From: Gemmatimonadetes bacterium 2013_60CM_65_52
GTDB taxonomy: Bacteria; Gemmatimonadota; Gemmatimonadetes; Gemmatimonadales; Gemmatimonadaceae
Direction of reading: 5' to 3'
NCBI GenBank assembly: GCA_002215645.1
Contig: NGFI01000005.1
Location: forward strand, 798,678 to 862,677
DNA length: 64,000 nt
Below are positions 30,399 to 49,227 of the stretch, in pieces. Under the pieces are notes generated by a model. That model ran no database searches and was not told the DNA's origin. It saw nothing but the letters and a program-made list of their open reading frames with translations. Made by a program: the position numbers and the translations under genes. Positions within the stretch are counted from its first letter, which is position 1. Every line of letters begins with the position of its first letter.

Positions 30399-33032
30399 AT
30401 GAGGTCGCTTGGTGCCACCTCATTGCTCGCCCCAAAACCCCGAAGGATGAAGGACGGGATGCAGAACCCGAATCGCGTTTCGACGACGAGCGCAATCAAC
30501 GACAGCGCGGCGCAAGCTGCGGCGACGCTCGACCGCATTCCTGATGCCTGCCTGGTGCTCGCAGCCGATTGGACGATCGGCTACCTGAATCCCGCGGCTG
30601 AAGGGGTGCTCGAGCGCGCCAAGACGGATCTCCTCGGCCGAAACCTCTGGGATGCGTTTCCTGATGTGGCGGGAGGCAGCTTCGATGGCGCCCTTCACAA
30701 GGCGATGGAGGAGCGGACCGATGTCACCGTCGAGGGCTTCTATCATGGCCTGGAACGGTGGGTCAACGTTCAGGCGCGACCATGGGACAGCGGCCTGGCG
30801 ATCTTCTTTCGCGACATTGCGAGCGAGCATCGCATCGCGGAGCAAGTGCTCGAGAGTGAAGCGCAGCTGCGCGACTTCGTGGAATCGGCCACGGATCTCA
30901 TTCACATGCTCGCGCCGGACGGTCGCGTGCTCTACGCAAATCGCGCGTGGCGCGAGACGCTCGGGTACACCGACGAGGAGATCACTCAGCTCTCGATGCT
31001 CGACATCGTAGCGGCCGATTCGCACGACACCGCCCGCGCGGCGCTGCAGAGGCTGCTCTCCGGCGAATCGCCCGTCCCAATCGAGGTCGCCGTGATCGCC
31101 AAGGATGGCCGACGTATCATCGTGCGCGGCCACGCGAATTGCCGCTTCGTGGACGGTGTGGCAGTCGGCACGCGAGGCATCTACCGTGACGTGACGGCCG
31201 AGCTCGAGGCGGCCGAGCGCCTCCGGAAGGCGCAGCGCATCGAGGCGTCAGCGATGCGCGCCAAGACGGCATTCCTCGATCGCGTGAGCCACGAGCTTCG
31301 CACGCCGCTCGCGTCGGTCATCGGCTTTGCCGATATCCTGCTTCAGAATGTCGGCGGCCATCTGACTTCCCGGGAGCTGACGTTTGCGAATCGCATTGCG
31401 GCCCAGGGACGCCACTTGCTGACGCTCATCGAGGACGTGCTTGCGTACGCGGAGATCGAGGCGCGGAGTTTCGAGCTCGACCTCACGACGGTGGACGTCG
31501 CCGCGCTGGTGCGCGAAGTCGTCGATCATCAGACCGATGGCGCCCGGCACCCTTCCATCGGCGTGCAGGCGCCCCTGTCCGCCATGCTGGCAACGGATGC
31601 GGCGACGCTGCGGCGTGTCGTTCGTTACCTCCTCGAGGACGCCATCAAGCGAGGTGCTGGAAGCGCTGTGTCCGTGACTCTGGTTGCGGATGCCGAATCG
31701 GGCTCCGCACGAGCGATCGAGGTATGCGATGAGCCTTCTCGGAGCGTCGAGGACGCCGTTGGCGCCACCCTCACCGATCCCTCCATCGCGCTCGAGCTCG
31801 GACTCACCGTAGCGCGCTCGCTCTGCCGGCTACTCGGCTACCACTTCTTGACCGAGACAGACGAGCACGGGACCACGACGCGACGCATCGAGCTCTGCGA
31901 AGGGGCGCGCCGTGATCAGCGCGCTCAGGATGACATGGCGACCACGCTCCATGCATTTCTCGAGGGGTCGCCACTGCCGATCATCACCTTCGATCCCGAC
32001 TGGACTGTCCGTGTTTGGAACGAGGCCGCGTCGCGCATGTTCGGGTGGACGCCCGCCGACGTCGTGGGAAAGCGGCTGCCGGTCTTGCGTGCCGACGACG
32101 AGCCATCGTTCCGGGAGCTGCTCCGTCGCGCACTCGAGTCCGACGCGGGCATCGCCGACGTACCGGCGACGCACGTGCGCAGCGACGGCTCACCCGTGAA
32201 CGTGCACGCCTCCATCGCACCGCTGCGCTCGCAGGAGGGTCGGCTCCGCGGCTTCATCAGCATCCTTGCCGATGTGTCCGAGCGAAGGCGGCTCGAGAAT
32301 GAGCTGCGGCAGGCGCAGAAGATGGAAGTCGTGGGGCAGCTCGCCGGCGGCATCGTTCATGACTTCAACAACATCCTGACCATCATAACGGCCCACTCGG
32401 AATTCCTGATCGGCGATCTCGGTGTTGATGATGAACGGCGCGACGACGCCGTGGCGATTCGTGATGTGGCGAAGCGCGCGTCCGACCTCACGCGACACCT
32501 TCTGCTGTTTGCACGCAAGGACGCACCGGAGCACAAGCTGGTTGACCTCAACCACACGCTCGCGAGCGCGGAGCGCATGCTTCGCCGCACGCTCGGCTCA
32601 CGACTCGAGTTCATCACTGCGCCATCCGCTGATCCGCTGCTCATTCACGCCGATCCTGCGCAGATCGAACAGGTGATCATGAACCTCAGCCTCAACGCCC
32701 GCGACGCGATGCCGGAGGGCGGAGTTCTCACGCTGATGACCGCAAGAAGTTCCCACGAAGCGGGTGAACCGGGACGAGCCATCCTCACCGTGCGCGACAC
32801 CGGAGTCGGAATGGATGCCGCCACGCGGGACCGCATCTTCGAGCCCTTCTTCACAACAAAGGAGAAGGGCAAAGGGACCGGTCTTGGGCTGGCAACGGTT
32901 TACACGATCGTCAAAGAGGCCGGCGGATCAGTCTCACTCGACACCGAACAGGGGAAAGGAACGACCTTCCGCGTGCAGTTGCCGCTCGCCCCTGAAGCGT
33001 CCCCCTTGCCCTACGCCTCGACTGGCACTTGA
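30399..33032 (+). CDS. Multi-PAS histidine kinase with two kinase cores, the first degenerate
   Basis: An 877-residue soluble kinase. Order: PAS (about 40-140), PAS (155-270), dimerisation domain with His298 (SHELRTPL), a degenerate ATPase region (360-500), PAS (515-630), a second dimerisation domain with His654 (GGIVHDFNN), then a canonical ATPase domain ([36 protein letters not shown]). In the first ATPase the invariant Asn is Asp414 (YLLEDAIK) and no DxGxG or GxGL boxes exist. It has no receiver domain and no adjacent regulator of its own. The start is uncertain: the ATG at 30459, with AGGA just upstream, is equally possible. Confidence 0.85.
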
Positions 33033-34357
33033 AGCTGACTCCTCGCCCGACGTGACAGAAACACGCCGACCAGGCTCACCGCCGCCGCGGTCATCAGCCA
33101 CAGCGCCGGCGACGCCTTGTTGCCCGTGCGCTCGATGAGATAGGTGCAGATCGCCGGCGTGAAGCCACCAAAGACGGCGGTGGCCAGACTATATGCCAGC
33201 GAAAAGCCCGCCGTGCGCACCGCCGGAGGCATGACCTCCACGAGCAGCGGAACCATGGCGCCGTTGTAAAAGCCGAAGAGCGCCGAGAACCAGAGCTCGA
33301 CCGCAAGAAGATGTGAGAAGCTCGGCGCCGCAACGAGCCACGCCATCGCCGGATAGGCCGTCACCAGCGCCAGCACCGGCACGATCGTTACCAGCGGGCG
33401 CCGGCCGATGCGATCGGACAGGCTCCCCGCGATCGGCAGCCAGACAAAGTTCGACAGGCCGACGCACAGGGTCACGAGAAACGCGCTTCGCGCATCGAGG
33501 TGCAAGGCCTGTTTGCCGAACGTCGGCGTGTACGCGGTAATGAGGTAGAACGACGTCGTCGTGAAAACGACGAGCATCATGCCGCTCAGCACGATGCGCC
33601 AATGAGACGCCACGATGCGAAAGACATCCGAGGCGCGACGGGCGTGGTGCTTCATCTTCACGAAGGCTTCCGTCTCCTCGAGCGAGCGTCGCAGGAAGAG
33701 GATGACGGGGATGATGAAGCACCCGATCAGCAGCGGAATCCGCCAGCCCCACGCACTCAGCTGTTCCGTGGTGACAAGTCCCGTCAGTACGAGTGCGATC
33801 AACGCCGTAAAGACAACCGCCAACTGCTGGCTTGCCGACTGCCAGGAGCAGTAGAAGCCACGCGTGCGAGGCGTCGCGATCTCCGCCAGATAGACTGATA
33901 CGCCTCCGAGCTCGACGCCGGCGGACAATCCCTGCAACAGCCGGCCAATGACGACAGCGATCGGCGCCGCAAGACCGATCGCCGCGTAACTCGGCGTCAC
34001 GGCAATGGTGAGCGTCCCGATCGCCATCAACCCGAGTGTGACGATGAGGCCCTGCCGGCGCCCCCTTCTGTCGATGTACGCGCCGAGCACGATGGCGCCG
34101 ACGGGACGCATGAGATATCCCACACCGAACGTCATCAGAGACAACATCAGCGAGGCGAACTCGCTGCCCGCCGGAAAGAAGGTCTTTCCGATGTACACGG
34201 CGTAGTAGCCGTACACGATGAAGTCGTACATCTCGAGGAAGTTGCCGCTCGCCACGCGGAGCACTGCCCCGAACCTGGGCTTCTTCGTCACGGGGCCGCC
34301 CGAGTCTCGTGGCTCGTTACGAGAGGGCAACGCGTCGACCATCTCGGGCATGCTCAT
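33011..34357 (-). CDS. MFS citrate/tricarballylate-type proton symporter
   Basis: Inner-membrane major facilitator of 448 residues, metabolite:H+ symporter family. It closely resembles enterobacterial CitA/CitH and TcuC (recalled, not searched). Shared motifs are the N-terminal [39 protein letters not shown] with the loop 2-3 signature, [21 protein letters not shown], and SDRIGRRP in the second half. About twelve membrane helices are evident. The ATG at 34357 overlaps the stop of the TctC-like gene as ATGA. The 3' end overlaps the convergent kinase gene by 22 bases. The likely substrate is a citrate-like acid. Confidence 0.85.
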
Positions 34358-35403
34358 GGAACGATGGCGATCTCCTTCGACACCGTGCGGTACGCTGCGG
34401 TCTGCTGCGCCACGAACGTCTCGAAATCCTTGCCGCCAAGGAAGAACGGCGCGAGCCCATTCTTCTCCAGCACCCCCTTCCATTCGGGCGAGGCGCTCAT
34501 GGTGCGGAGTGTCTCCACCCACTCCCGATACTCGCTCTCGCTGAGACCCGGCGGTGCGTAGAATCCGCGCCAGACGACGAATACCACATCCAATCCCTGC
34601 TCGCGGGCCGTGGGCACATCCGCCAAGAGCGAAGGGGCACGACGCTCGCCGAGTACCGCGAGCACCCGCAGCTCCTTCCGCTGTACGGCCGGCAACATCT
34701 TCGAGAGCTCCGCCGGAAATACCTGGAGCGAGCCATCCTTCACTCTGGCAATTGCTTCGGCCGGCGTTGCCACCGGTTCGTAGCGAACCTTTCGAACATC
34801 GAGGCCCGCGGCTCGCGCGAGCAGCAGCATCTTCATGTGATCCTGGCCGCCGACCGCGCTCGTACCTCCGATGACGACCGAGTCAGGATGCGCGCGCCAT
34901 GCCGCGACGAACTCGCGCAGGTCATGCCACGGCGCCTTCGCGCTCACCGCGATGATGCTCGGTTCGGCGTCCACCGCCGCGATCCAACGCACGTCTCGCT
35001 CGGTGTGATCACCGTAATGATGCTGCGCCAGACCAAGGAGCGTGGATGGACTTGCGGCAATGATCACCGGGTCGTGCGCATGACCCGGCCTGAGGATGCT
35101 CTTGAAGGCCACTGCGCCACCTTCGCCCGGCATGTGCGTCACATGCAACGGCTGGCCGCCGGGCGCCCGAGCACCCAGTACCTGTGACACGGCGCGGCAA
35201 CTAAAATCCCATCCGCCGCCAGGATTCGCGGGCGCGATGCAGCCTGATGGCATCCTCGCCTCGGACACACATGCCGCCAGCACCAGGCACGCGACAACGC
35301 CTGGCGCCGATGTGAGTAAAAGAAAGAAGCGAGCTGCTGCCGAAGCGGTGCGATGCCGTCTCATGCGTTTGGCTGGGGATACGGGCGATGACCGGCACTT
35401 CAC
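34354..35403 (-). CDS. TctC/Bug-type solute-binding lipoprotein
   Basis: Periplasmic substrate receptor of the tripartite tricarboxylate transporter (Bug) family, about 349 residues. The signal peptide ends in a lipobox LAAC, so it should be membrane-anchored. Bug features include [36 protein letters not shown] and a C-terminal [18 protein letters not shown]. The GTG at 35403 is chosen because GAGGAG, overlapping the susD-like stop, lies six bases upstream; a later ATG (35364) is possible. No TctA or TctB gene is present. The downstream overlapping gene is an MFS symporter instead. Confidence 0.85.
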
Positions 35404-35413
35404 CAACCACTCC

Positions 35414-36664
35414 TCACGTTCGCCCGTTCGTCTCAGACGGCGGCAAAGGCAGACATGTCAGGTTTCCGTATGATACGCCCTTCTGGTTCTTGCCGGTAGC
35501 GAAGGGAATGCCATATCGCAGCATGTCACCGATCCGGTGCCCATCGAGAAACAGCGTGCGGCGGCGCTCCTCCTGAATGTCGGTCGAGGCTCCTGTGCCC
35601 ATGTACGCAGGAAGACTGTATTTCGCTCGCACCGCGCTGATCGCGGCCACGGCGCTCGCCGGCTCCGCTTCCGCGAGGATGAGCTGCGCTTCGTCCCACG
35701 TCGCAAGAGGCAAGGGGGAATCGAGCGCGACGTACTTCTTCTGAATCCACAACGGCGTGATGCCGTCCTGTCCGTTGGTGCGTGAGTCCTTGACGACTGG
35801 CACGCGGGTGTCGGCAGCGGTGCCAACGGTAAGCCCGCGGTACTCCGGCGCGATCGACTCGTGCGCGTTGATCGTGCCGGCGGCAACCGTCGTGTTGAAG
35901 CGCCGAACCGGCTGCGTCGAGTACGTCGCATTGAAGGCGAATGTGGAGGGCGCCACGAGCTTAGCGTCCGCAGCCGCACCGGCATTGTTCGCGAGATCGA
36001 GCCGCACCCGCGCTCGGCCCACTCGCGCCGCATTGAGCAGCGTCGCGTTGTTCAACGTGGCCGCCATCGTGATGGCGCGAGTGAACCGCGCCTCTGCAAG
36101 GGCGAGCGCCGCAGCCGGCGTGATGAGGGGCTCCGGGCCCGTGGCCACCTGGCAGTACGCTTCGCCGAGTAGTGCGTAGCTGAACCCTGCATACACGAGG
36201 GCCGTCGTGGTAAGCAATGCGCGTGTGGGAACGTCGGCATCCGTGAACCCATCGAGCACGGTAATGGCGGTCTCGGCCTGGACGCGTGCCGTTTGCAACG
36301 GGACGTAAAGGGCATAGTTGCCCAGCGTGGCGGCCGCGTTTTGGCACGGGAGGATGCCGTTGTCGTTGGTCGAGAGGCGGGCTCCCCAGCCGACGACTTC
36401 CCCGTTGGCGGAGCTGTTCAACAGCTCGTTCGACCACAATCCGGTGTCGTGAACGTATTCGCTGAACGCGCACTCGAAATCTGCCTGGACGCCGTTCACC
36501 ATCGTGGTGGAGAGTCCCGGGCTGGTGAGTGCCGATGCGGGCACTTTGCCCGGAAGCGAGACGTCGAGAATGCCCTTGCATGCCTGCAGCAGTTGAAGGC
36601 TGCCAAGCGCGAGCACGGCGGTCCACGCGCGCAGCCGGCGATGCCTGTGAGATCCGTTGAGCAT
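35414..36664 (-). CDS. SusD/RagB-like outer-membrane lipoprotein
   Basis: Surface ligand-binding partner of the upstream SusC porin, 416 residues, shorter than Bacteroides SusD. A signal peptide with lipobox LLQAC gives Cys29 as the lipid anchor. The helical TPR-like body shows ALLGEAYCQVA and a C-terminal EERRRTLFLDGHRIGDMLRYG, a pattern conserved near the end of SusD proteins. The ATG at 36664 has AAGGAT seven bases upstream. It lies 33 bp behind susC, and its stop overlaps the ribosome-binding site of the TctC-like gene. Confidence 0.88.
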   Translation of the reverse strand: MLNGSHRHRRLRAWTAVLALGSLQLLQACKGILDVSLPGKVPASALTSPGLSTTMVNGVQADFECAFSEYVHDTGLWSNELLNSSANGEVVGWGARLSTNDNGILPCQNAAATLGNYALYVPLQTARVQAETAITVLDGFTDADVPTRALLTTTALVYAGFSYALLGEAYCQVATGPEPLITPAAALALAEARFTRAITMAATLNNATLLNAARVGRARVRLDLANNAGAAADAKLVAPSTFAFNATYSTQPVRRFNTTVAAGTINAHESIAPEYRGLTVGTAADTRVPVVKDSRTNGQDGITPLWIQKKYVALDSPLPLATWDEAQLILAEAEPASAVAAISAVRAKYSLPAYMGTGASTDIQEERRRTLFLDGHRIGDMLRYGIPFATGKNQKGVSYGNLTCLPLPPSETNGRT

Positions 36665-36697: not shown

Positions 36698-39600
36698 CTA
36701 GAAGCCGAGGCGTGCCGTGAGCACGATTTGCGAGGTGGGCGGCAGCGTCGTCTGGAATCGCGCCGCTGTTTCGGCACCTGGTGGACGCTGCTCCGGATCG
36801 AAGATCTTCGCGCCATAGATGGTCTTCTGCGCCTGATACAGCAGCGCCACGTTGCGCCACGCCGCCGTGATGGACGCGTTGGACGCTCCGCCCAACCGGG
36901 CCGCGAAGCGATCGGGAAGGTTGTAGCTCGCCGACAGCTCGCGCAGCTTCGCAAAGCTTGCGTCGAAGAATCCGAGCGGCGGGCGGCCCACGGATCCCTG
37001 GTACGCCGCGAACACCGGATCTACGGGACCGCTGAGCGGGTTTGCCATCGCCGTGTTCTGGAAGTTCTGGTGATCCGCCTCGATCGAGCCCTCTTCGTAC
37101 AACATGCCGGTCTGGTAATCGATGAGTGCGGACAACCGCCAATTTCTGAGCAGTGTGAGCGTGTTGGTCACGCTGCCCAGCTTCGTGGGCGTTGGCTGGC
37201 CGTAGTACACCAGCGGCGCGGACGCGCACGGCACTGTACCGCCCTTGTCGTCATCGCACATGACGTTCTGGAGCGTGCCTGCCGCGGAGTAACTGGCACT
37301 CACGACTCTCTTCCAGAAGAAGGAGCCGACGGAATATCCCTCGCGATTGTACTGGTCGATGGCATTGCCGCTGTTCGGGACGCCTACCGGCGGCAGACCG
37401 CCGAGGCTCTCGATGCGATTGTGCGCGGTGGCGAAGTTGACGATGAGATCCCACGCGAGCTTCGGGCGATCCACCATTCGCGCATTCACACCGATCTCGT
37501 TCCCCCACGCCGCCACGCGCCCCAGGTTCACGACGGTTGCGCCAGGAAAGCCTATGGACGGTTGGTTCGGTGCGCGCACGATGGCGTCCTTTGTCGTGCG
37601 GTTGTAATGCGTGAAAGTGGCCGTAATCCGGTCGTCGAGAAATCCGACGTCGACGCCGGCCTCGAGCTCCTCGCCGCGCTCCGGCTTCAACGCCGTGTTC
37701 CCGAGCGATCCGGGCGTGAGAACTGGCACGCCTCCAGGCCCGGTCGTTGGTGAGTAGAGCGTGACGGCGTCGAACGCGTCGGGTTGCTGTCCAGCCTGGC
37801 CCCACGCGGCGCGAAGCCGCAACGAGTTGACCCGCGGCGCATGCCAGAATGACTCCTCGCTCAACACCCAGGCGCCGCTGACCTTCGGGTAGTACGCCGC
37901 CTTGTAATCCTTACCGAACGCGGAGTTCGCGTCGCCACGAACGGCGACAGTAAGGAATCGGCGGTTCTTCCAGCCGAACGCCTCCTGCACGTACATGCCG
38001 AACGTCTTGTTTTCGATGAAGTCCTCGCCCGACGACGTCACCGCGGCGCCGCCGATGGTCGTTACGTCGGGCGTGGGGAAGTTCTGCCCGTACTCGCTGG
38101 CGAGGGTAAACTGCTTGCGATAGTACTGAGCGCCGAAGGACGTGGCGGTTGACCACAACGAGTTGTCCGTCTTGGCCGTGATCGAGTAATCGACCGTGGA
38201 GTAGTTCGTCGTGACGTTCTCGAGCGTCTTCTCACCCGTGCCCCTGCTGCCGAAGAAGTTCGTCTGACCATCCGGCACGCGCGGAAAGAGGATCTGATTC
38301 GTCGTATTGCCCGCGTCCACTCCCGCCTTGAGCTGCTGCGTGAGCCAGGCCAGGGGAGTGTTCTTGATGTCGATGCCACCGGTAAAGCGATTTACCTTCG
38401 ACCGCGAATCGATCAGGCCGGCCACGTCGGGATTCGCGTATCGAAACCCTTGCGTGGGGGTGCTGAACAACGTCGGCTTGCTGTAGATGATCATGTCCCA
38501 GATGCCGAAGCCCTCGGCGGCCTGGGCGAAGCGCGTCTCGTTCTGGATGAAGTCCAGGTGCGCGTCGACCTGCCACTTCGACGTCGGCAGCAACGACAGG
38601 TTCGCTCGACTGGCGGTTCCCTTCAGCCAGTTGTAGTCCACGATGCCGGTGTTGCTGATCTGGCCGGCGGAGACGAAATAGCGTGCCAGCTCGTTGCCGC
38701 CGCTCAGGCTGCCGTTCAGCTCGTGCAGGCGGCCGGTGCTGAAGATGTTCCGCCCCGTGAGCTCTCTCCAACGCGTGATCATGTTCACGCTGTCCAGGAG
38801 GCCCGTCGCGGGATTCTTCCCGTAACTGAGGTTGATGCGGCTCTCGGCGTTCGGCAGGAAGTTGCCGCCCTCCTTTGCCGTCACCTCGAAGCTGGCTTTT
38901 CCGTTTCGTCCACGCTTGGTAATGATCTGGATGACGCCATTGGAGGCTTCGGTGCCGTACAGCGTCGCCGCCGCTGGTCCCTTGATGATCTCCATGGACT
39001 CGATGTCTTCCGGATTGAAGTCGTTGAGTCGCGAGGCGTAGCGGCCGTTGCGGATGGCCGGACCGCCGGAGGGATTATTATCCACACGCACTCCGTCCAC
39101 GTATACAATCGGCTGGTTCGCCAGCGAGAGGCTCGCCGCGCCGCGAATGCGCACGGCGCTGCCCGAGCCGACCAACCCTGGCGTCGGAAGGATCAGCACG
39201 CCCGGACTCTTCTGCCCGAGCAGCTGCTGGACGTTCACCGCCGGAGAGCTCTGTGCCTCCTTCGCGATGTCCAGCTTGTCCACGGTGTTGCCGATCGCGC
39301 GCATCTGCGTGCCGCCGGCTGTCCCGGTCACAACCAACGCATCGAGCGCTGTCACTGCGGGGGTAAGTGCGAAGTCCAGGGTCGCCGCCTCACCATCGGT
39401 GAGCGTCACGGATCGATCGCCGCTCCCGTAACCAATTCGCCGTACGCGTACGACAGCGGTGCCCACGGGAACGCCGATGAGCCGATAACGGCCCTGTGCG
39501 TCTGACATCGCGCCAAGCGTGGTGCCAATGATCGTCACTTGAGCGGCGGCGACCGGTACCCGCGATGCGGCATCGACGATCGTGCCGCTGATCGTCCCAG

Positions 39601-39733
39601 CCGCCCCACGCGTGGGCAGTATCGGTGAGCGACTCCGATGCACCGTGGCCGCCTGCACCGAGGGGGGCACGCCCGCCACAGTGGCGAGGCCCGCCGCGGC
39701 CATCAGTGCGACCAGCGTGAAACGATTCGACAT
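36698..39733 (-). CDS. SusC/RagA-family TonB-linked outer membrane transporter
   Basis: A 1011-residue TonB-dependent porin. A signal peptide (about 1-28) is followed by a carboxypeptidase-regulatory-like beta domain (48-130; GTISGTIVDAASRVPVAAA). The plug comes next (about 135-270; VRIRGAASLSLANQPIVYVDGVR and MEIIKGPAAATLYGTEASNGV), then the barrel, ending in a terminal aromatic (RLGF) for Bam recognition. The ATG at 39733 has GGGAGA just upstream. It starts a likely four-gene operon with SusD, a TctC-like lipoprotein and an MFS symporter, implying active import of a small acidic solute. Confidence 0.93.
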   Translation of the reverse strand: MSNRFTLVALMAAAGLATVAGVPPSVQAATVHRSRSPILPTRGAAGTISGTIVDAASRVPVAAAQVTIIGTTLGAMSDAQGRYRLIGVPVGTAVVRVRRIGYGSGDRSVTLTDGEAATLDFALTPAVTALDALVVTGTAGGTQMRAIGNTVDKLDIAKEAQSSPAVNVQQLLGQKSPGVLILPTPGLVGSGSAVRIRGAASLSLANQPIVYVDGVRVDNNPSGGPAIRNGRYASRLNDFNPEDIESMEIIKGPAAATLYGTEASNGVIQIITKRGRNGKASFEVTAKEGGNFLPNAESRINLSYGKNPATGLLDSVNMITRWRELTGRNIFSTGRLHELNGSLSGGNELARYFVSAGQISNTGIVDYNWLKGTASRANLSLLPTSKWQVDAHLDFIQNETRFAQAAEGFGIWDMIIYSKPTLFSTPTQGFRYANPDVAGLIDSRSKVNRFTGGIDIKNTPLAWLTQQLKAGVDAGNTTNQILFPRVPDGQTNFFGSRGTGEKTLENVTTNYSTVDYSITAKTDNSLWSTATSFGAQYYRKQFTLASEYGQNFPTPDVTTIGGAAVTSSGEDFIENKTFGMYVQEAFGWKNRRFLTVAVRGDANSAFGKDYKAAYYPKVSGAWVLSEESFWHAPRVNSLRLRAAWGQAGQQPDAFDAVTLYSPTTGPGGVPVLTPGSLGNTALKPERGEELEAGVDVGFLDDRITATFTHYNRTTKDAIVRAPNQPSIGFPGATVVNLGRVAAWGNEIGVNARMVDRPKLAWDLIVNFATAHNRIESLGGLPPVGVPNSGNAIDQYNREGYSVGSFFWKRVVSASYSAAGTLQNVMCDDDKGGTVPCASAPLVYYGQPTPTKLGSVTNTLTLLRNWRLSALIDYQTGMLYEEGSIEADHQNFQNTAMANPLSGPVDPVFAAYQGSVGRPPLGFFDASFAKLRELSASYNLPDRFAARLGGASNASITAAWRNVALLYQAQKTIYGAKIFDPEQRPPGAETAARFQTTLPPTSQIVLTARLGF

Positions 39734-39812: not shown

Positions 39813-39880
39813 CATCTGTGCCCGACGCGTTTGTCCGTTCATCCGACAAATGCCGAAGTCCCGACACGCGGGCACAGATG
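39813..39880. repeat. 68-bp nested inverted repeat in the susC upstream region
   Basis: Perfect 12-bp arms CATCTGTGCCCG (39813-39824) and CGGGCACAGATG (39869-39880) flank a 44-bp interior. That interior holds a second inverted repeat, TTTGTC (39830-39835) with GACAAA (39845-39850). The element lies 80-150 bp upstream of the susC-like ATG and about 105 bp beyond the kinase stop. It may be a paired operator, a structured leader or, less likely, a terminator of the kinase gene, as no T tract follows. Confidence 0.6.
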
Positions 39881-39984
39881 CAGGCGGCAACGTAGCGTCG
39901 GGCAACCTAGACGCACGATTAACGGGGATTGACTGCGACGGCGGCGCCGCCTCCGCCATTCGACTGCCTACGTCCGCAGCACCG

Positions 39985-41457
39985 TCACGCGACTGACGCG
40001 CTCGCAGCGGGAATTGCAGGAAGCGTGAGCGTAAACACCGTTCCCTTCTCTCCCGACGACGTCAGCGTCAGGTCGCCGCCATGGGCGCGGGCGATGCGCC
40101 ACGCGATGGACAATCCGAGTCCTGCGCCGCCCGTTGCAGCAGTTCTCGTCCGGGCCGCGTCGGCGCGAAAGAAGCGGTCAAATACACGTGCCTGCGCATC
40201 GGCGGGAATGCCGGTGCCGTCATCGGACACGCGCACGACGTGACAGCCTCTGGACGTCTCGAGCTCGACCAGCACCGCGTTGCCTGGTGACCCGTACTTG
40301 ATGGCGTTGTCGAGGAGATTGGTGACGATGCGATCGATGAGGAGCGGGTCGCCGCAGCATCGCGCCTCGACCGTCGGATGAAACGTCAGCGCGATGCCGC
40401 GGTCCGTCGCGAGCGGCCGAATGCGCGATACGCTCTCCAGGAGGAGTTCCTCGAGAAAGAACTCGTGTCGCTCGAGAGCGCCGTCTGCCGCGTCGAGGCG
40501 CGCGAGCGTGAAGAGATCGTCAACGATGGCACTCAGCCGTCGAGCCTCGTCACGCATGTGCACGAGCGAGCGCTCATACTCGGCGGTTGTGCGCGACTGC
40601 GACAGGGCGACGCTGGCCTCCGCCCGAAGGCTTGCAATGGGTGTTCGCAGCTCGTGCGAGGCGTCGGCCATGAATTGCCGCTGTTGAACGAACGATCGCT
40701 CCAGCCGCGACAACATGTCATTGAACACCGACGCCAGCTCGTCCATCTCATCGCCGGTATGGCGCACGGCGAGTCGTGCGTCGAGGCTCTCGGAGTCGAT
40801 CGACGATGCGCGCCGGCCCATGTCGACCACTGCCGCAAAGCTGCGGCGCGCCAGGAAATAGCCGCCCACACCCGCGAGCACGAGCGCCAGGGGGATGGCC
40901 ACGAGGACGGCTTGCATGAAATTACCGAGGACCGTCCGTTCGACCTGGCCAACCTGAAGTGCGACGATGGTGAACTCCTGGTCCGCGACCCGCACGCTGG
41001 TGGCGTACGAACGAATCAGATCGTGGCCGTTACGAATGGTGGCATACGCCGAGCGCCCCGGTGCAAGCGCGGCAAAGAGCGGATGGATCGGTGAGTCGTC
41101 CGCCCGATCGATCGCGGAGATGGCCTGCGTGAGATCGTCGCTCGACGAGTCGGACACCGCGACCAGACTGTGGTACGCGCCGTACACCAGCACGCGGCGG
41201 CCGCTGAAGCGAAACTCGCGAGCGGCGTCCTTCGCCGCCTCATCGGGGTTGCGGTTTGCGCGCGCCTCCGTGATCACCGCCTGATGAAAGGAGCGCACCG
41301 CTTCGGCGAGCGACCGGTCCACGCGGTCCTGCGTGAGTCGCTGAAGATACGCCCATGTGAACGCGGTGAACGCCACGAGAACCAGCGCGAGGACGCCGGT
41401 ATGCCAGAACGCGAGCCTCGTGCGAACCGAGCGGAGCAACCGCGTGCCTCGGCGCAC
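39985..41457 (-). CDS. Membrane sensor histidine kinase (OmpR-partner type)
   Basis: A 490-residue two-transmembrane kinase. A helix at about 17-38, a periplasmic domain (40-180), a second helix (182-203), HAMP (204-256) and a dimerisation domain with His268 (ASHELRTPI) are visible. The ATPase domain has TNLLDNAIKYGSPG, DDGTGIP, VFDRFFR and GGAGLGLSI. The GTG start at 41457 lies one base after the regulator stop. Architecture and gene order recall TctE/QseC-type systems. Proximity to the SusCD-TctC-MFS genes suggests, but does not prove, that it controls them. Confidence 0.9.
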   Translation of the reverse strand: MRRGTRLLRSVRTRLAFWHTGVLALVLVAFTAFTWAYLQRLTQDRVDRSLAEAVRSFHQAVITEARANRNPDEAAKDAAREFRFSGRRVLVYGAYHSLVAVSDSSSDDLTQAISAIDRADDSPIHPLFAALAPGRSAYATIRNGHDLIRSYATSVRVADQEFTIVALQVGQVERTVLGNFMQAVLVAIPLALVLAGVGGYFLARRSFAAVVDMGRRASSIDSESLDARLAVRHTGDEMDELASVFNDMLSRLERSFVQQRQFMADASHELRTPIASLRAEASVALSQSRTTAEYERSLVHMRDEARRLSAIVDDLFTLARLDAADGALERHEFFLEELLLESVSRIRPLATDRGIALTFHPTVEARCCGDPLLIDRIVTNLLDNAIKYGSPGNAVLVELETSRGCHVVRVSDDGTGIPADAQARVFDRFFRADAARTRTAATGGAGLGLSIAWRIARAHGGDLTLTSSGEKGTVFTLTLPAIPAASASVA

Positions 41458-41458
41458 C

Positions 41459-42154
41459 CTATCCGTCTCCCGATGTCGTGGAGGTCACGCCGAGGTAGTA
41501 TCCGGATCCGCGGCGCGTCTGTATGAGAGGAGTGAGGCCTGCGCGATCGATCTTCTTGCGCAGCCGATTGATGTAGACCTCGACCGCGTTTGTTGCCGGA
41601 TCGTGGTTCTCGTCCCAGACGTGCTCCGTGAGCTCCGAACGGCCGACGATTCTTCCCGCGTTGCGCGCGAGGTATGCCAGGAGTGTGTACTCCTTGGTGG
41701 TGAGCTCCACAGTCGCACCGACGCGACGAACGCGCTGCGCCGGAAAATCGATCTCGAGGTCCTCGAGCTGGTACCGGGCCTGATCGACCTGCTCGCCGCG
41801 ACGGCGCAGCAACGCACGCAATCGAGCGAGCAGCTCGTCGAATTCGAAGGGCTTCGCGAGATAATCGTCGGCGCCGCTGTCGAGCCCTTGAATGAGGTCT
41901 ACCGTGTTTCCTCGCGCCGTGAGCATGAGGATTCGCACAGCGGAGCCATTCTTTCGCAGCGTTCGACATACCGTGAGGCCGTCCACCTTCGGCAGGCTGA
42001 CGTCGAGAATGATTGCGTCATACGGACTGATGCTCGCCTGATACAGCGCCGCCTCTCCGTCCGCCGCGACGTCCACGGCGTACGCCTGTTCGCGAAGTCC
42101 GCGCGAGAGCGACGTAGCGAGTGCCACGTCGTCTTCGACCAGAAGGAATCGCAT
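41459..42154 (-). CDS. OmpR/PhoB-family response regulator
   Basis: A 231-residue regulator. The receiver domain (1-115) has the acidic cluster EDD (8-10), phosphoacceptor Asp51 (IILDVSLPKVDG) and the switch Lys in LAKPFEFDE. The winged-helix domain (about 130-225) shows LTTKEYTLLAYLARNAG and the recognition and wing segment NAVEVYINRLRKKID ... RRGSGYYL. The ATG at 42154 shares one base with the stop of the exported enzyme gene (TGATG). The kinase follows directly. TctD and QseB are the closest-looking described relatives. Confidence 0.92.
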   Translation of the reverse strand: MRFLLVEDDVALATSLSRGLREQAYAVDVAADGEAALYQASISPYDAIILDVSLPKVDGLTVCRTLRKNGSAVRILMLTARGNTVDLIQGLDSGADDYLAKPFEFDELLARLRALLRRRGEQVDQARYQLEDLEIDFPAQRVRRVGATVELTTKEYTLLAYLARNAGRIVGRSELTEHVWDENHDPATNAVEVYINRLRKKIDRAGLTPLIQTRRGSGYYLGVTSTTSGDG

Positions 42155-44145
42155 CAGTCGGCGGTCAGCGTAATGCGCGTCTCTCCACCAGGCGTCAGCG
42201 TCACCGCCAACGGAAGGCACTCGAAGCCGGGCACCAGGTTGAACGTTCGGTCCTTGTCCAAGGAGGCAAACCCGCCGAGGGCATCGGTGCGAACCAGCAG
42301 TCTTCCCTTCCCCTTCGAGATGCGGATCGCTCCCGGCTCCAGCCGTTCAACCGTCTCGGTATGCGCGGAGATCACCGGCAGTATGAACTTGCACCCCTCC
42401 TGGCCGCCAGAAGCACCGCTCACATTGATGCCGGCCACGATCTCGATGTCGGTCGGTGTCAACCGATATGCCAAACGATACCGCGCATCGCTGGCGGCCA
42501 GCGGCTGGTGTCCCGACGTCAACAGACGGCCGCCTGCCTCGAAGGCGATGTGCTCCGGTGTCGCATTCACGGTCAGCATTGCGTCGAAGTCGCTCAGGCT
42601 CGTATAGCTCTGTCCATTCACGATGCTCTCGATCCGCGGTGTGAGCGTCATGTGCGGATAGTCACCGTGCTCCTGCTGATTCGAGATTTCGATCCGCTGA
42701 TATCTCGTCATGCTGGCTACGAGTATGGGGCCGAGTCGCTGGTGGAACAGCATCGACAGCGTACCGCCACTCGCATGACCGCCACCCGACGCGCCTCCGC
42801 CGGTTTGCACCGTCTCCAGGTACTCGAAGTCGTACTCGGTCACGGTCGCGCGCCAATCGCCGATCGCCGCCAGATGCGTCCCGATCTCCGGATAGCTCTT
42901 CACGCCGTACGCGGCGTCTCGCGGAAGAGCCACTCGCGGTTGCTTTGCCCGCTCCGCACCGCCCCGATCGAGCACCGTGGCCAACGCCTTCGCGTGAGTG
43001 AAGGTGTGATGCACGCACGGTAGCTCTCCGTGCGAGTGGTAGTGTGGCCCGCCGTGGAGAAGACCGTCATGCGTGCAGGCCGCCATCTGCTCCAGATTGC
43101 GAAAGGCCACCTCACGGAATCTCGGATCGTGTTGCGCCAATAATGCAAATGCCGGCTGACACCCGTCACTCGTGCGGCTGCCCCACCAGGTCCACTTGTA
43201 GTTGCGGCTGCCCCAACTGTTGTCCCACCCCCCGTCGGGCATCATGAATTCCATGTGCGTTCGCAGCGAGGTGACGACACGCTCGAGCACCACTTCATCG
43301 TTGGTGGCCAATGCGTAGAGTGCGAGAGACGGCAGCGACTCCTCCACGTTGTAGCCGAGGTCGACGGGCCGGCACTTCTTCTTCGTGACCGCCGTCTGCG
43401 GATGACCTTCGCCGAAGAGCAACCCGTTCTGCGTGAAGTACTCGAGCGTCGCATGCGCCAGCTCACGAGCGCGTGCGAGGTAGCGTGAATTGTCGAGCAC
43501 CTGGCCGCAGATGGCAAAACAGTAAGCGCCGGTCACCGGATAGTTGATGTTGCCCGATTCGATGGTGAGGAAGCCATCGAGGAACTTTGTGGCCCGGACC
43601 AGACGCTCGGTCCACTGTCGGCGCGTTGACGCATCCAACAGGTCGCCATGGTGGTGGAGCGCTTCTGCCAACGCGATGCTGTGAAAGACGGTAATCCCCT
43701 TCCACGAGCTCAGCGTCACGTCATTGACCCAGCTCCCGTCCGGCCGGGAGACCTGCCGCTCGGACCAGTCGTGCACTAGGAGTGCGGCGCGCAAATACTT
43801 CGCGTCACCGGTGGCGCGCGCCATGTGCAGCAGCGGGTAGATGGCGTCACCACAGCGACCGTGAACCAATGCACACGCAGGACAGACGATGCCGCCGTGC
43901 AGCGCGGGATTACGGATCCCGGTGACCTGGAGCGACACCAATCCGTCGCACCAGCGTTTCAGGACACTGCCGTAGAGGTTCGACGCGTTTGCCAGCGGCG
44001 CATCGGGAGCAGGCGGCCCGCCAGGCGCCGACAACCAACCGGGCCACATCAACGGCACGCTCAGCGTCGTGGCGCCGACCACGGAGCGCAGCAACTCGCG
44101 GCGCGTCAGACCGTCCGGCGAATTACGCAACTCGTGCTCGTTCAT
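42154..44145 (-). CDS. TAT-exported protein with a predicted alpha/alpha-toroid plus beta-sandwich layout
   Basis: I do not recognise a named family. The 663 residues begin with a twin-arginine signal (TRRELLRSVVG at 14-24). A helical, hairpin-rich region of about 330 residues follows (about 60-400), then a beta-rich C-terminal half (about 420-663). This layout is seen in heparinase II/III-like and other polysaccharide lyases and six-hairpin glycosidases. Notable conserved-looking motifs are CPACALVHGRCGDA, GGWDNSWGSRNYKWTWWG, GGPHYHSHGE and HHTFTHAKAL, rich in His, Tyr and Trp suitable for sugar binding and acid-base chemistry. Its stop overlaps the regulator start, so it is co-expressed with the two-component system. 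Confidence 0.55.
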   Translation of the reverse strand: MNEHELRNSPDGLTRRELLRSVVGATTLSVPLMWPGWLSAPGGPPAPDAPLANASNLYGSVLKRWCDGLVSLQVTGIRNPALHGGIVCPACALVHGRCGDAIYPLLHMARATGDAKYLRAALLVHDWSERQVSRPDGSWVNDVTLSSWKGITVFHSIALAEALHHHGDLLDASTRRQWTERLVRATKFLDGFLTIESGNINYPVTGAYCFAICGQVLDNSRYLARARELAHATLEYFTQNGLLFGEGHPQTAVTKKKCRPVDLGYNVEESLPSLALYALATNDEVVLERVVTSLRTHMEFMMPDGGWDNSWGSRNYKWTWWGSRTSDGCQPAFALLAQHDPRFREVAFRNLEQMAACTHDGLLHGGPHYHSHGELPCVHHTFTHAKALATVLDRGGAERAKQPRVALPRDAAYGVKSYPEIGTHLAAIGDWRATVTEYDFEYLETVQTGGGASGGGHASGGTLSMLFHQRLGPILVASMTRYQRIEISNQQEHGDYPHMTLTPRIESIVNGQSYTSLSDFDAMLTVNATPEHIAFEAGGRLLTSGHQPLAASDARYRLAYRLTPTDIEIVAGINVSGASGGQEGCKFILPVISAHTETVERLEPGAIRISKGKGRLLVRTDALGGFASLDKDRTFNLVPGFECLPLAVTLTPGGETRITLTAD

Positions 44146-44188: not shown

Positions 44189-44755
44189 TCAGGTCAATGC
44201 GTCTGCGAAGAACTCCGCAAGATCAAGAATGAGCGGCGCCGGCATCCCGTCGAGCGGAAAGTCGATCTCCTTGTTGAGCACCTCACCCGGATCATCGCGG
44301 TGTCGCCAGCGCGAAACGTTGCGCGCGTCCGGATTGATGACCCAGTACTCGCCGACGCCTTCCCGAAGATAGAGGTCGCGCTTGATCTGATAGTCGAGGA
44401 TTGCGTTGCTAGGCGACGCAACTTCGACGGCCAGGAGCAGATCATGCAACTCATACGGGTAGGCCGGTCGCTTGCCATCGACCACCCGAACGACGAAGAC
44501 ATCTGGCTGCACGCGATTCCGCGTCCGATCGCCGCGACGAACGTCCGCCGGCGAGATCATCGCTTTGCCGATGCCATGACCAACGAGATATTGGTGGAGA
44601 CGCCAGAACAATGCGCCAGCGATATCCTGATGGAATTCGCCGGGCCCGGGTGTCACGAACAGTTCGCCGTCGATGATCTCGTAGCGCTGCCCGTCGTCCG
44701 GCAGAGCATCGACCATGTCGACAGTCCAATCGAGATACGTGGCAGCCATGGACAT
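44189..44755 (-). CDS. Uma2 family (DUF820) endonuclease-like protein
   Basis: A 188-residue PD-(D/E)XK-fold protein of the Uma2 family, common in multiple copies in some phyla and of unclear role. Core elements are GELFVTPGPGEFHQDI, VQPDVFVVR, the catalytic-like LLAVEVASPSN segment and EYWVINPD. The ATG at 44755 is supported by GAGGTGA seven bases upstream. It is 43 bp ahead of the exported enzyme gene on the same strand, but functional linkage is doubtful because such genes often sit alone. Confidence 0.8.
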   Translation of the reverse strand: MSMAATYLDWTVDMVDALPDDGQRYEIIDGELFVTPGPGEFHQDIAGALFWRLHQYLVGHGIGKAMISPADVRRGDRTRNRVQPDVFVVRVVDGKRPAYPYELHDLLLAVEVASPSNAILDYQIKRDLYLREGVGEYWVINPDARNVSRWRHRDDPGEVLNKEIDFPLDGMPAPLILDLAEFFADALT

Positions 44756-44766
44756 ACGTTAGTCAC

Positions 44767-44800
44767 CTCGGCAAAGCGAAAGCAAGTAGGCATTGCCGAG
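44767..44800. repeat. Inverted repeat overlapping the Uma2 ribosome-binding site
   Basis: Eight-base perfect arms CTCGGCAA (44767-44774) and TTGCCGAG (44793-44800) enclose 18 bases. On the minus strand the distal arm includes the GAG of the GAGGTGA Shine-Dalgarno sequence, so folding would partly hide it. It could also be the 3' end structure of the sdh operon, though no T tract follows. Confidence 0.4.
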
Positions 44801-44903
44801 TTTCGCCGAGAGCAACTCGTCTGCCGTCACCGTGATGACGCAGTGTGGATCGATTTTATGCCGCGGTCTAAACCGTCCCGATCAAACACTCCCCACGTCC
44901 CGC

Positions 44904-45680
44904 TTATCCCTCGTCGCCCCCGGAACGCTCTTCGCTCGCTGCAACCGCGGCCACCAGGAAATCCCGATTCATCCGCGCGATCACATCGATGCTGATCTCC
45001 TTCGGACACGCTTCCTGACACTCGCCGAAGAGTGAGCACCCTCCGAAGCTCTCGAGATCCATCTGTGCCACCATCTTGAGCGCACGCCGGTACCGCTCCG
45101 GCTGTCCCTGCGGCAACAGCCCCAGGTGAGAGATCTTTGCACCAGTGAACAGGGACGCTGACGCGTTCGGACACGCGGCCACGCACGCGCCACACCCGAT
45201 GCATGCCGCCGCGTCCATGGCGGAGTCTGACGCCTGTCGAGCAATCGGCATCGTGTTCCCGTCGGGTGCGCCTCCCGTCGGCGTGCTGATGAAACCGCCC
45301 GCCTGGATGATGCGGTCGAGTGCACTCCGATTCACCACCAGATCCTTGATGACCGGAAACGCCCTGGCACGCCACGGCTCGATCACGACGATGTCCCCGT
45401 CGCGGAAGCTCCGCATGTGCAGCTGACACGTGGCCGTTCCCTTCATCGGCCCGTGCGCCACTCCATTGATCATCATGCCGCACGAACCGCAGATGCCCTC
45501 GCGGCAGTCATGATCGAAGGCAATGGGCACGTCTCCGGCGGAGATGAGACGCTCGTTGACGACGTCGAGCATCTCCAGAAACGACATGTCGGGATTGACG
45601 TCGATGGCCTGATACTCCACGAGCGCGCCGGCGACATCGGACTGCGCCTGCCGCCAGACACGCAGCGTGAGATTCATCAT
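44904..45680 (-). CDS. sdhB: Succinate dehydrogenase/fumarate reductase iron-sulfur subunit
   Basis: Electron-transfer subunit of complex II, 258 residues. It has the plant-type 2Fe-2S domain ([11 protein letters not shown] with a later CQLH) and two bacterial ferredoxin-like motifs, [12 protein letters not shown] and [12 protein letters not shown], for the remaining clusters. The start is one of two adjacent ATGs at 45680/45677, behind GAGCGGA and five bases after the sdhA stop. It is the last gene of mdh-sdhCAB. Subunit style is that of type-B enzymes. Confidence 0.95.
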
Positions 45681-45685
45681 TCCGC

Positions 45686-47608
45686 TCACTTGTAACTCCG
45701 CTGCGCGAGCCTCACGTTCTCGAAGACGAGCGGCTCCTTGTTGAGAATCGGGGGCTGCCCTTCTCCCGCATACTCCCATGCGGCGACGTAGGTGAACTCC
45801 GCGTCATTGCGGAGCGCCTCGCCGTCGGGTGTCTGGTGCTCGGTCCGGAAATGGCCGCCGCACGACTCCTCCCGATGCAACGCGTCGCGACACATCAGCT
45901 CGCCGAGCTCGAGAAAGTCCGCCACGCGCCCCGCGTGCTCGAGGGTCTGATTCAGCTCCTCGCCCGAGCCGGGAATGCTCACGTCCTGCCAGAACTCCTC
46001 GCGGAGGGACGGAATGAGCTCGAGCGCCTTCGTCAGTCCTGCTGCGTCGCGCGCCATGCCGCAGTGCTCCCACATGATGCGTCCGAGCTCACGGTGGAAC
46101 GACGTGACGGAACGCTTTCCTTTGACGCCAAGGAGCCGCGTCGTCCGCGCTGCGACGTCAGCGACGGCCGCCTTCACCTCGGATGCATCGGCTGCGAGAG
46201 ATTCCGGACGCGCCGTCGCGAGGTAGTCGCCAATGGTATAGGGAAGCACGAAGTACCCGTCCGCGAGGCCCTGCATGAGCGCACTCGCGCCCAGTCGGTT
46301 CGCACCGTGATCCGAGAAGTTTGCCTCGCCGGCCACGTGCAATCCGGGAATCGTGCTCATGAGATTGTAGTCCACCCAGAGCCCGCCCATGGTATAGTGC
46401 ACGGCGGGATAGATGCGCATCGGGACCGCGTACGGATTCTCGTCCGTGATGCGCTGATACATCTCGAACAGATTTCCGTATCGCTCGCGGATCTTGTCTT
46501 CACCGAGCCGCTTGATGGCGTCGGCGAAATCGAGATATACTCCGCGTCCCCCGGGCCCGACGCCGCGGCCGTCGTCGCACGCCTCCTTCGCCGCCCGCGA
46601 CGCGATGTCGCGCGGCGACAGGTTTCCATAGCTCGGATACTTCCGCTCCAGGTAGTAGTCGCGGTCGCTCTCGGGAATGTCGCCCGGCTTCTTGCCCACG
46701 TCCTCGCGACGCTTCGGCACCCATACTCGGCCATCATTCCGCAACGACTCCGACATGAGCGTCAGCTTGGATTGATACTCTCCGGCGACGGGAATGCACG
46801 TCGGGTGAATCTGCGTGTAGCATGGATTTGCGAACGCGGCGCCGCGCTTGTGCGCGCGCCAGATCGCCGTCGCGTTGCATCCCTTCGCGTTCGTCGAGAG
46901 ATAGAACACGTTTCCATACCCGCCCGTGGCCAATACCACGGCATCGGCGAGATGCGGTTCGATGGTGCCGCTCACCTCGTCGCGCACCACGATACCGCGC
47001 GCTCGGCCATTCACCACGATGAGGTCCAGCATCTCCGACCGTGGGAACATGGAGACGCCACCCTTCGCGATCTCCTTCTCGAGCGCCTGATAAGCGCCCA
47101 GCAGTAGTTGCTGCCCCGTCTGTCCGCGGGCATAGAACGTTCGCGACACCTGCGCCCCGCCGAATGAGCGGTTTGCCAGGAGGCCGCCGTACTCGCGCGC
47201 GAACGGCACGCCTTGCGCCACACACTGGTCGATGATGTTCACACTGATCTGCGCGAGCCGGTACACGTTGGCCTCGCGAGCGCGAAAGTCACCGCCCTTG
47301 ATGGTGTCGTAGAACAGGCGCTGGATGCTGTCGCCGTCGTTCTGGTAGTTCTTCGCGGCGTTGATTCCACCCTGCGCCGCAATGGAGTGCGCGCGACGCG
47401 GCGAATCCTGGTAGCAGTAGCAGCTGACGTTGTATCCCAGCTCGCTGAACGTCGCCGCGGCCGACGCACCGGCGAGCCCGGAGCCGACGACGATGATGTT
47501 GTATTTCCGCTTGTTCGCCGGATTGACGAGTTTGACGTCGAACCGATGCTTGTCCCACTTGTCAGCGAGGGCACCGCCGGGAACGCGTGCATTGAGCGTG
47601 AGCGACAT
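45686..47608 (-). CDS. sdhA: Succinate dehydrogenase/fumarate reductase flavoprotein subunit (type B)
   Basis: Catalytic FAD subunit, 640 residues. The FAD-binding [19 protein letters not shown] is followed by [21 protein letters not shown], containing the flavinylation His in HSIAAQGG. Catalytic motifs HPTCIP and the C-terminal [12 protein letters not shown] are also present. The sequence strongly resembles Bacteroidota and epsilon-type enzymes rather than the E. coli form. The ATG at 47608 abuts the sdhC stop with no gap. Confidence 0.96.
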
Positions 47609-48292
47609 CTAACGGACGACTCCCAGCAGAACGGCGACAGGCACCGCCGTGAATCCGAGCCACACCACGATCGCGACGACCGTGGCAATCCGACGGTGCA
47701 ACGGCTGTGGAGAGGGCTTGCTGAGCCCGAGCGTACGAACCGAGCTCCACGCGCCATGGAAGAGGTGCAGCAGCAGAAAGAGCATCGCCACCACATAGAC
47801 CGCGACGACCCACGGATTGTGGAACGCGCTCACGACGTTGCCGTAGACGTCGTGCTCGCTGAACGCCGGATACACGGCGTCCGGCCGGCTCGCGGTGGGA
47901 AACAGCGTGCCGGTGGTGAAATGCAGCAGATGGAACACGATGAAGGCGAGCAGCAGCACACCGCCCCACCGCATCGTGCGCGACGCAACCGTGCTCGCGC
48001 GCGCATCACGCCGCGCGTAGTCGTGCGGACGTGCGGCCGCCGCAACGCGCGTGAGCTGCCATGCCATCAGGACATGCAGCACCAGCGCGGTGAGCAAACC
48101 GAGGCGCACCAGCCAGAGCAGCTCGCCGGTGCTCTTCAGGAAGGCGGAATAGCCGTTCATCTTGGCGGGACCAAGGAAGACCTGGAGGTTGCCCGCCATG
48201 TGAACGATCACGAAGGCCACGAGCACGAGGCCTGTGACCGCCATGATGCTCTTTTTGCCTATCGTAGAGCGGTACAGCGTGACCAGCCACAT
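47609..48292 (-). CDS. sdhC: Succinate dehydrogenase cytochrome b subunit (type B, single anchor)
   Basis: A 227-residue, five-helix membrane anchor expected to hold two haems b and the quinone site. Candidate axial histidines are in VIVHMAGNLQVF, LVLHVLMAW, FHLLHFTTG and LLLHLFHGAW. A single large anchor in place of SdhC plus SdhD defines the type-B enzyme. The ATG at 48292 lies five bases after the mdh stop; upstream in-frame codons belong to mdh. It sits in the inner membrane, reducing menaquinone if the family rule holds. Confidence 0.9.
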   Translation of the reverse strand: MWLVTLYRSTIGKKSIMAVTGLVLVAFVIVHMAGNLQVFLGPAKMNGYSAFLKSTGELLWLVRLGLLTALVLHVLMAWQLTRVAAAARPHDYARRDARASTVASRTMRWGGVLLLAFIVFHLLHFTTGTLFPTASRPDAVYPAFSEHDVYGNVVSAFHNPWVVAVYVVAMLFLLLHLFHGAWSSVRTLGLSKPSPQPLHRRIATVVAIVVWLGFTAVPVAVLLGVVR

Positions 48293-48297
48293 GAGCG

Positions 48298-49227
48298 CTA
48301 CAGTTTCACGGCCGACATTGGCTCGCGAACCGCTTGCGCGCTCTTCTCGAGTGCCGTGCGCTCGTCGGCGGTGAGCTGCACTTCGATCACCTGCTCGAGG
48401 CCCTTCCGCCCGAGCTTGCACGGTACGCCGAGGAACAGGTCGCGCAACCCGTATTCGCCCTGAAGCCAGGCCGCACAGGGAAGAATGCGCTTCTGATCGT
48501 TCACGATGGCCTCGGCCATCTGCACTGCGCCTGCCGATGGCGCGTAGTACGCGGATCCGGTCTTGAGGTACTTCACGATTTCCGCGCCCCCGTTCCGCGT
48601 GCGGTCCACGATCGCGTTCAGCGTGGCCGCATCCATGAGCTGCGTGACGGGAATACCGCTCACGCTCGTGTACGAGATCAATGGGACCATCGTGTCGCCA
48701 TGGCCGCCCAGCACCATGGCCTGAATGTCACGCACGGAGACGTCGAGCGCCTCGGCGAGAAACGCACGATACCGCGCGGTGTCCAGCACGCCCGCCATGC
48801 CGATGACGCGCTCGCGCGGAAAGTGCGTCGCTTCCTTGGCCACGTAGCACATGACGTCGAGCGGATTGCTGACGACGATGACGATGGCGTCGGGCGACGT
48901 CTTTGCGATCTGCTCCGACACGGACTTCACGATGCCGGCATTGGTGTTCAGCAGATCGTCGCGCGACATGCCCGGCTTGCGCGCAATGCCGGCCGTGATG
49001 ATGACGATCTCCGAGCCGGCCGTCTCGTCGTAGCCGTTGGTGCCGATGATGCGCGAGTCGTACCCCTCGATGGGCGCGCTCTGCCACTGGTCCAGCCCCT
49101 TGCCCTGTGGAATGCCCTCGACGACGTCGACCAGAACGACGGTTCGCGCCAGCTCCTTTTCCGCGACGCGCTGAGCCGTCGTCGCACCGACATTGCCGGC
49201 GCCGACGACGGTGATCTTCTTGACCAT
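48298..49227 (-). CDS. mdh: Malate dehydrogenase (LDH-like)
   Basis: Oxidises malate to oxaloacetate with NAD+, 309 residues. It shows the dinucleotide fold [12 protein letters not shown], Asp34 region ([13 protein letters not shown]) favouring [14 protein letters not shown], and the catalytic [10 protein letters not shown] with the proton-relay His. Arg residues of the mobile loop ([11 protein letters not shown]) fit malate rather than lactate. It is the first gene of a compact mdh-sdhCAB unit covering succinate to oxaloacetate except fumarase. Confidence 0.95.

Follow-up and report, generated by a model that had tools for sequence, protein, structure and literature searches.

We analysed a window of 64,000 nucleotides from a Gemmatimonadota genome, in which the gene of an exported enzyme, a two-component pair and a set of transporter genes lie one after another on the same strand:

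42154..44145, minus strand: predicted exported (TAT) uronosyl-oligosaccharide dehydratase-like protein, P29_PDnc/PL37-like, 663 aa, with putative catalytic residues D262, R314 and K317
41459..42154, minus strand: OmpR/CopR-like response regulator, 231 aa, with a 75% identical orthologue in the congeneric genome G195
39985..41457, minus strand: CopS-like membrane histidine kinase with a GTG start, orthologue in G195 69% identical
36698..39733, minus strand: SusC/RagA-type TonB-dependent outer membrane receptor, 80% identical in G195
35414..36664, minus strand: SusD-like protein that pairs with SusC, 76% identical in G195, Pfam match below the cut-off
34354..35406, minus strand: Bug/TctC periplasmic carboxylate-binding protein, 61% identical in G195
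33011..34522, minus strand: TcuC-type tricarballylate/citrate proton symporter (MFS), 73% identical in G195

The enzyme and regulator genes (42154-44145 and 41459-42154) meet in TGATG, where the TGA of the one and the ATG of the other have one base in common, and the GTG of the kinase at 41457 lies one base past the regulator stop codon; the first-pass annotation had described both junctions and had them right. The gene ends at the overlap are natural: the C-terminus of the enzyme coincides with the ends of its relatives, and the regulator start (MRFL..VEDD) is that of its orthologue. The N-terminus of the enzyme reads LTRRELLR..., with the twin arginines kept in 8/8 of the relatives aligned first. 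The regulator consists of a receiver and a Trans_reg_C (OmpR-type DNA-binding) domain, and the kinase has the domain order HAMP-HisKA-HATPase. Stop-start overlaps are frequent within operons, so the TGATG junction argues for co-translation and not for a common signal; the exported enzyme and the regulator and kinase are probably made together. Promoter and terminator scans gave no excess over shuffled sequences. Directly upstream of the enzyme and in the same direction, positions 44189-49227 hold mdh, sdhC, sdhA, sdhB and a Uma2-family gene.

A gap of 251 bp separates the kinase from SusC, after which SusC, SusD, Bug/TctC and the MFS gene continue on the same strand. The two-component genes are thus upstream of and collinear with a transporter operon that contains a Bug protein, as in the TctDE/BctDE type of arrangement. 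SusC scores under its family cut-off (366.9 vs 368.25), as does SusD in Pfam (18.3 vs 23.1), and TctAB genes are absent next to the Bug/TctC gene. The MFS protein matches the tricarballylate/proton symporter family TcuC at 668.7 bits (cut-off 445) and is not a generic MFS member; its listed reading frame overlaps Bug, so its true start is probably further downstream. A symporter of the tricarballylate/citrate type suggests carboxylate uptake. Other Bug proteins in the phylum (∼45% identity) have no comparable two-component system or close TcuC adjoining.

The NCBIfam models nearest to the kinase and regulator are the heavy-metal (CopRS) kinase and regulator subfamilies. With membership of the CopRS/CzcRS group defined as a score above the NCBIfam TIGR01386/TIGR01387 cut-offs, both proteins fall outside it, the kinase at 287.9 vs 292.55 bits and the regulator at 220.7 vs 279.2 bits. 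The regulator also misses the TctD family cut-off (173.9 vs 337 bits), and the pair scores closer to CopRS than to TctDE. CopRS-like pairs of similar kind are numerous in the genomes examined, which makes this likeness a poor guide to the signal. Elsewhere in the phylum we found regulators that are 56-63% identical, with kinases of only 32-45% identity, unrelated contexts and no transporter; they are therefore uninformative on the signal as well.

The order regulator-kinase-SusC-SusD-Bug-TcuC is kept in G195, at 75, 69, 80, 76, 61 and 73% identity. The G195 block has no enzyme: the regulator comes first, the divergent upstream ORF is aminotransferase-like (named by eye), and the enzyme was found nowhere else in this assembly, which is 92% complete. 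Since the flanks are unlike on both sides between the two genomes, this block of six genes behaves as a single unit, with the enzyme outside it. The comparison draws on one congeneric genome, so the enzyme may instead have been lost from G195. Judged by this synteny, regulator and kinase belong with the transporter genes, a pairing that the first-pass annotation had proposed. An extra ORF on the opposite strand lies between the kinase and susC in G195 (L076, 11764-12936) and has no match in the window; by eye it resembles a YncE-type beta-propeller, with Pfam matches below the cut-off only.

Two features were found in the susC leader:

39886..39910, minus strand: candidate regulator site CTAGGT-N9-CTASGTTGCC upstream of susC, a 25-base repeat also present in G195
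39813..39880, minus strand: nested inverted repeat with 12-base perfect arms CATCTGTGCCCG/CGGGCACAGATG and an inner TTTGTC...GACAAA

The susC leaders of the two species are mostly dissimilar and share one block of 22/30 positions (local alignment score 19 vs a maximum of 18 among 300 shuffles). The pattern CTAGGT-N(8-12)-CTASGTTGCC occurs once in the window genome and once in G195, each time upstream of susC, and is missing from three other congeneric genomes; because the pattern was derived post hoc from the very two sequences that it matches, the candidate site is a lead only. It is also missing upstream of the enzyme and upstream of the G195 regulator. The inverted repeat folds better than shuffled sequences (z −2.55), and no matching repeat was seen in the G195 susC leader.

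The enzyme has no sequence match in Pfam (even at E 10), in NCBIfam or in the PDB (phmmer and profile search). In a profile-based structure model (mean pLDDT 63) a beta-sandwich follows an alpha/alpha toroid, and a model built without an alignment is poor (pLDDT 44). Foldseek places PL35, PL33, PL15, PL17 and PL8 lyases at the top over both domains (9o3q, E 1.8e-10), with a two-domain structural alignment rmsd near 15; the toroid alone fits many families. The best single-domain matches by VIA-align, the transaldolase AprG, AGE-type epimerases and GH88/GH76 toroids, show fold and not function. The PL33/PL35 glycosaminoglycan lyases (8r71, 8khv, 9o3q) share the toroid and beta-sandwich architecture and differ in their low identity (∼12%) and in a beta-domain His that is not kept among the relatives of the window enzyme.

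The residues point to a different activity. P29_PDnc of Formosa agariphila is an ulvan oligosaccharide dehydratase of the PL37 type in which D248, E254, E255, D269, D290, R300 and K303 were mutated; its activity needs D248, K303 and an arginine, printed once as R230 and given as R300 in the variant list (PMC8511951). The window enzyme has D262, E268, E269, D283, D304, R314 and K317 in the corresponding places, 7/7 at a constant offset of 14, as judged from the published residue positions; the best of 5000 shuffles reached 5/7 and other proteins of the window at most 4. D262, R314 and K317 correspond to the catalytic Asp, Arg and Lys and do not vary in 12/12 relatives, one of them only 28% identical. 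Toroid/beta-sandwich lyases use an Asn-Tyr-His catalytic set (PMC12088678). Its putative counterparts in the window enzyme are N201 and Y265, which are invariant, and H457 in the beta-sheet domain, which is R or Q in distant relatives. A lyase-type triad (N199/N201, Y265, H457) was considered and dropped, as neither H457 nor N199 is kept in distant relatives.

A homologue that is 41-43% identical to the enzyme lies on plasmid 5 of Persicobacter sp. JZB09; a sulfatase and a GH2 protein flank it, and a sulfatase-GH78 hybrid, another GH2 protein and more sulfatases follow. The ulvan pathway of Formosa agariphila includes both a sulfatase-GH78 hybrid and P29_PDnc (PMC8511951), and the Persicobacter locus, which appears to be of the ulvan utilisation type, gives indirect support for kinship with the dehydratase. 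This locus is unannotated (L171, 15932-41729) and comprises several sulfatases, the sulfatase-GH78 fusion, two GH2 genes, a BNR_4 gene and the dehydratase homologue. The window enzyme itself differs from P29_PDnc in its setting: its relatives are of a non-marine type, GH105 and sulfatase neighbours and the ulvan context are absent, and the window enzyme is coupled to a two-component system.

The complete enzyme occurs in 1/298 genomes of the window's phylum, and five further genomes have short, weak matches only (17-22 bits). Among Acidobacteriota the profile matched in 7/376 genomes, four of them over the full length. Most of the relatives found are from this phylum, and those from the genome scan, e.g. 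in Edaphobacter, are 53-73% identical to the enzyme. In the tree the window enzyme falls on a short branch inside an acidobacterial clade, several forks of which are weakly supported. Given this distribution and placement, transfer from Acidobacteriota is the simplest reading: the enzyme was probably gained horizontally from that source, a direction that rests on distribution and depth. GC content bears no sign of recent transfer, and no phage record searched carries the enzyme.

None of the relatives (0/11) adjoins this two-component system or a SusCD-Bug set, and their other neighbours vary, with no constant operon. In two acidobacterial genomes (L014 and L167) the enzyme is divergent from sucCD-like genes (named by eye), and in a third (L168) its neighbour is a PF05426 alginate-lyase-family protein. 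In the genome of the window, on contig C8 of G000 (L172, ∼78.6-79.2 kb), a PF05426 alginate-lyase-family gene overlaps a GH88-like gene whose match is just below the cut-off (25.9 vs 26.6 bits); this pair is a possible downstream partner of the dehydratase.

The fold by itself would fit an ordinary toroid/beta-sandwich polysaccharide lyase (PL33/PL35/PL15/PL17-like) that cuts uronate polymers. The Foldseek matches across both domains, the invariant N201 and Y265 and the alginate-lyase-family neighbour in L168 all favour this assignment, and P29_PDnc was itself initially reported as a lyase (PMC8511951), so the two activities are easily confused. We nevertheless regard it as unlikely: the D/R/K set is kept where H457 is replaced, and the enzyme has no Pfam heparinase II/III match, with an hhalign comparison to 30 heparinase II/III proteins at a probability of 2.9%, which is uninformative. 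Because D, R and K are invariant and the lyase-type His is not, we take the enzyme to be most likely a uronosyl-oligosaccharide dehydratase of the P29_PDnc/PL37 kind. From its residues, fold and relatives we infer that it removes water from a non-reducing-end uronate and leaves a 4,5-unsaturated end. Action on acidic glycans, as the first-pass annotation had expected, is thus probable from the dehydratase residues, the lyase-like fold and the sulfatase-rich Persicobacter locus.

That annotation had gone further, proposing that the enzyme generates a product from acidic glycans, that the kinase senses this product or the loss of the substrate, and that SusCD, Bug and the MFS protein import it, as in a polysaccharide utilisation locus. 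Bug proteins and MHS-type symporters could handle unsaturated uronates and keto-deoxyuronates, since both are carboxylates, and both this and the co-translation of a uronate-acting type of enzyme with the two-component pair speak for such a circuit. The two further claims, sensing through the enzyme and import of its product, are not supported. The G195 block is free of the enzyme, the relatives never adjoin the pair, the symporter is of the tricarballylate/citrate type, the susC repeat does not recur upstream of the enzyme, and no other CAZyme lies in the neighbouring genes scanned. We therefore keep the acidic-glycan enzyme and the link of the two-component system to the transporter, and consider the product-sensing circuit quite improbable. 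Still less probable is a CopRS-kind metal sensor whose SusCD-Bug-TcuC genes import metal-carboxylate complexes. The heavy-metal subfamilies are the nearest models, but kinase and regulator both score below the cut-offs, and the neighbours scanned include no gene for metal efflux or a metalloenzyme, save ordinary upstream iron-sulfur and molybdenum-cofactor genes.

On balance we lean towards two units of different origin under one operon start. One would be a self-contained uptake-and-sensing module of the regulator-kinase pair and SusC-SusD-Bug-TcuC, whose ligand is most likely a di- or tricarboxylate. The ligand would cross the outer membrane by way of SusCD, Bug would bind it in the periplasm and TcuC would import it, and the two-component pair may switch on the susC operon through the site near 39886-39910. 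The families to which TcuC and Bug belong, and their linkage to the pair, make a carboxylate the probable ligand sensed. The other unit would be the exported dehydratase, through which acidic oligosaccharides would lose water at the non-reducing-end uronate, and the resulting 4,5-unsaturated ends could be removed by GH88/GH105-type hydrolases. Acquired probably from Acidobacteriota, the enzyme would have come to lie at the head of the two-component operon, and so would be co-translated with the regulator yet not be its ancestral input.

Bordetella offers a parallel for the first unit. There the genes of the BctDE two-component system precede a separate bctCBA operon in the same direction, and signalling depends on the Bug protein BctC in its citrate-bound form (PMC5812351). 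Bug may likewise present its ligand to the kinase here, as BctC does to BctE. Both loci have a co-directional two-component system upstream of a separate transporter operon with a Bug protein; the window differs in having SusCD and a TcuC-type MFS protein instead of TctAB, and a two-component system nearer CopRS than TctDE. As the scores stay below the cut-offs of TctD as well as of CopRS, the parallel is one of logic and not of family. With the polysaccharide utilisation loci of Bacteroidota the locus shares a SusC/SusD pair, an exported enzyme predicted to act on glycans and a local regulator; it departs from them in its classical OmpR-type two-component system, in place of a hybrid two-component system, ECF factor or SusR, and in its carboxylate-type binding protein and symporter. 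We do not class it with these loci: SusCD is present, and the enzyme is outside the block that is orthologous in G195. The parts are ordinary and the combination is unusual. A fuller picture, in which SusCD serves a carboxylate, Bug both feeds the MFS protein and co-senses with the CopRS-like kinase, and the horizontally gained dehydratase, translationally wired in, makes the processing of acid sugars rise with sensing of the carboxylate, is doubtful as a whole.

The analysis assigns a likely function to a family of exported proteins for which Pfam and NCBIfam have no model. Uronate dehydratases of this kind would thereby reach beyond marine Bacteroidota and Planctomycetes into Acidobacteriota and the phylum of the window. 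The locus suggests that an exact overlap of stop and start codons can bring an unrelated enzyme into a regulator operon, and cautions that translational coupling need not mean a common signal. Should carboxylates prove to be the cargo of the SusCD-Bug-symporter block, SusCD would be linked to a nutrient that is not a glycan and that has a sensor of its own.
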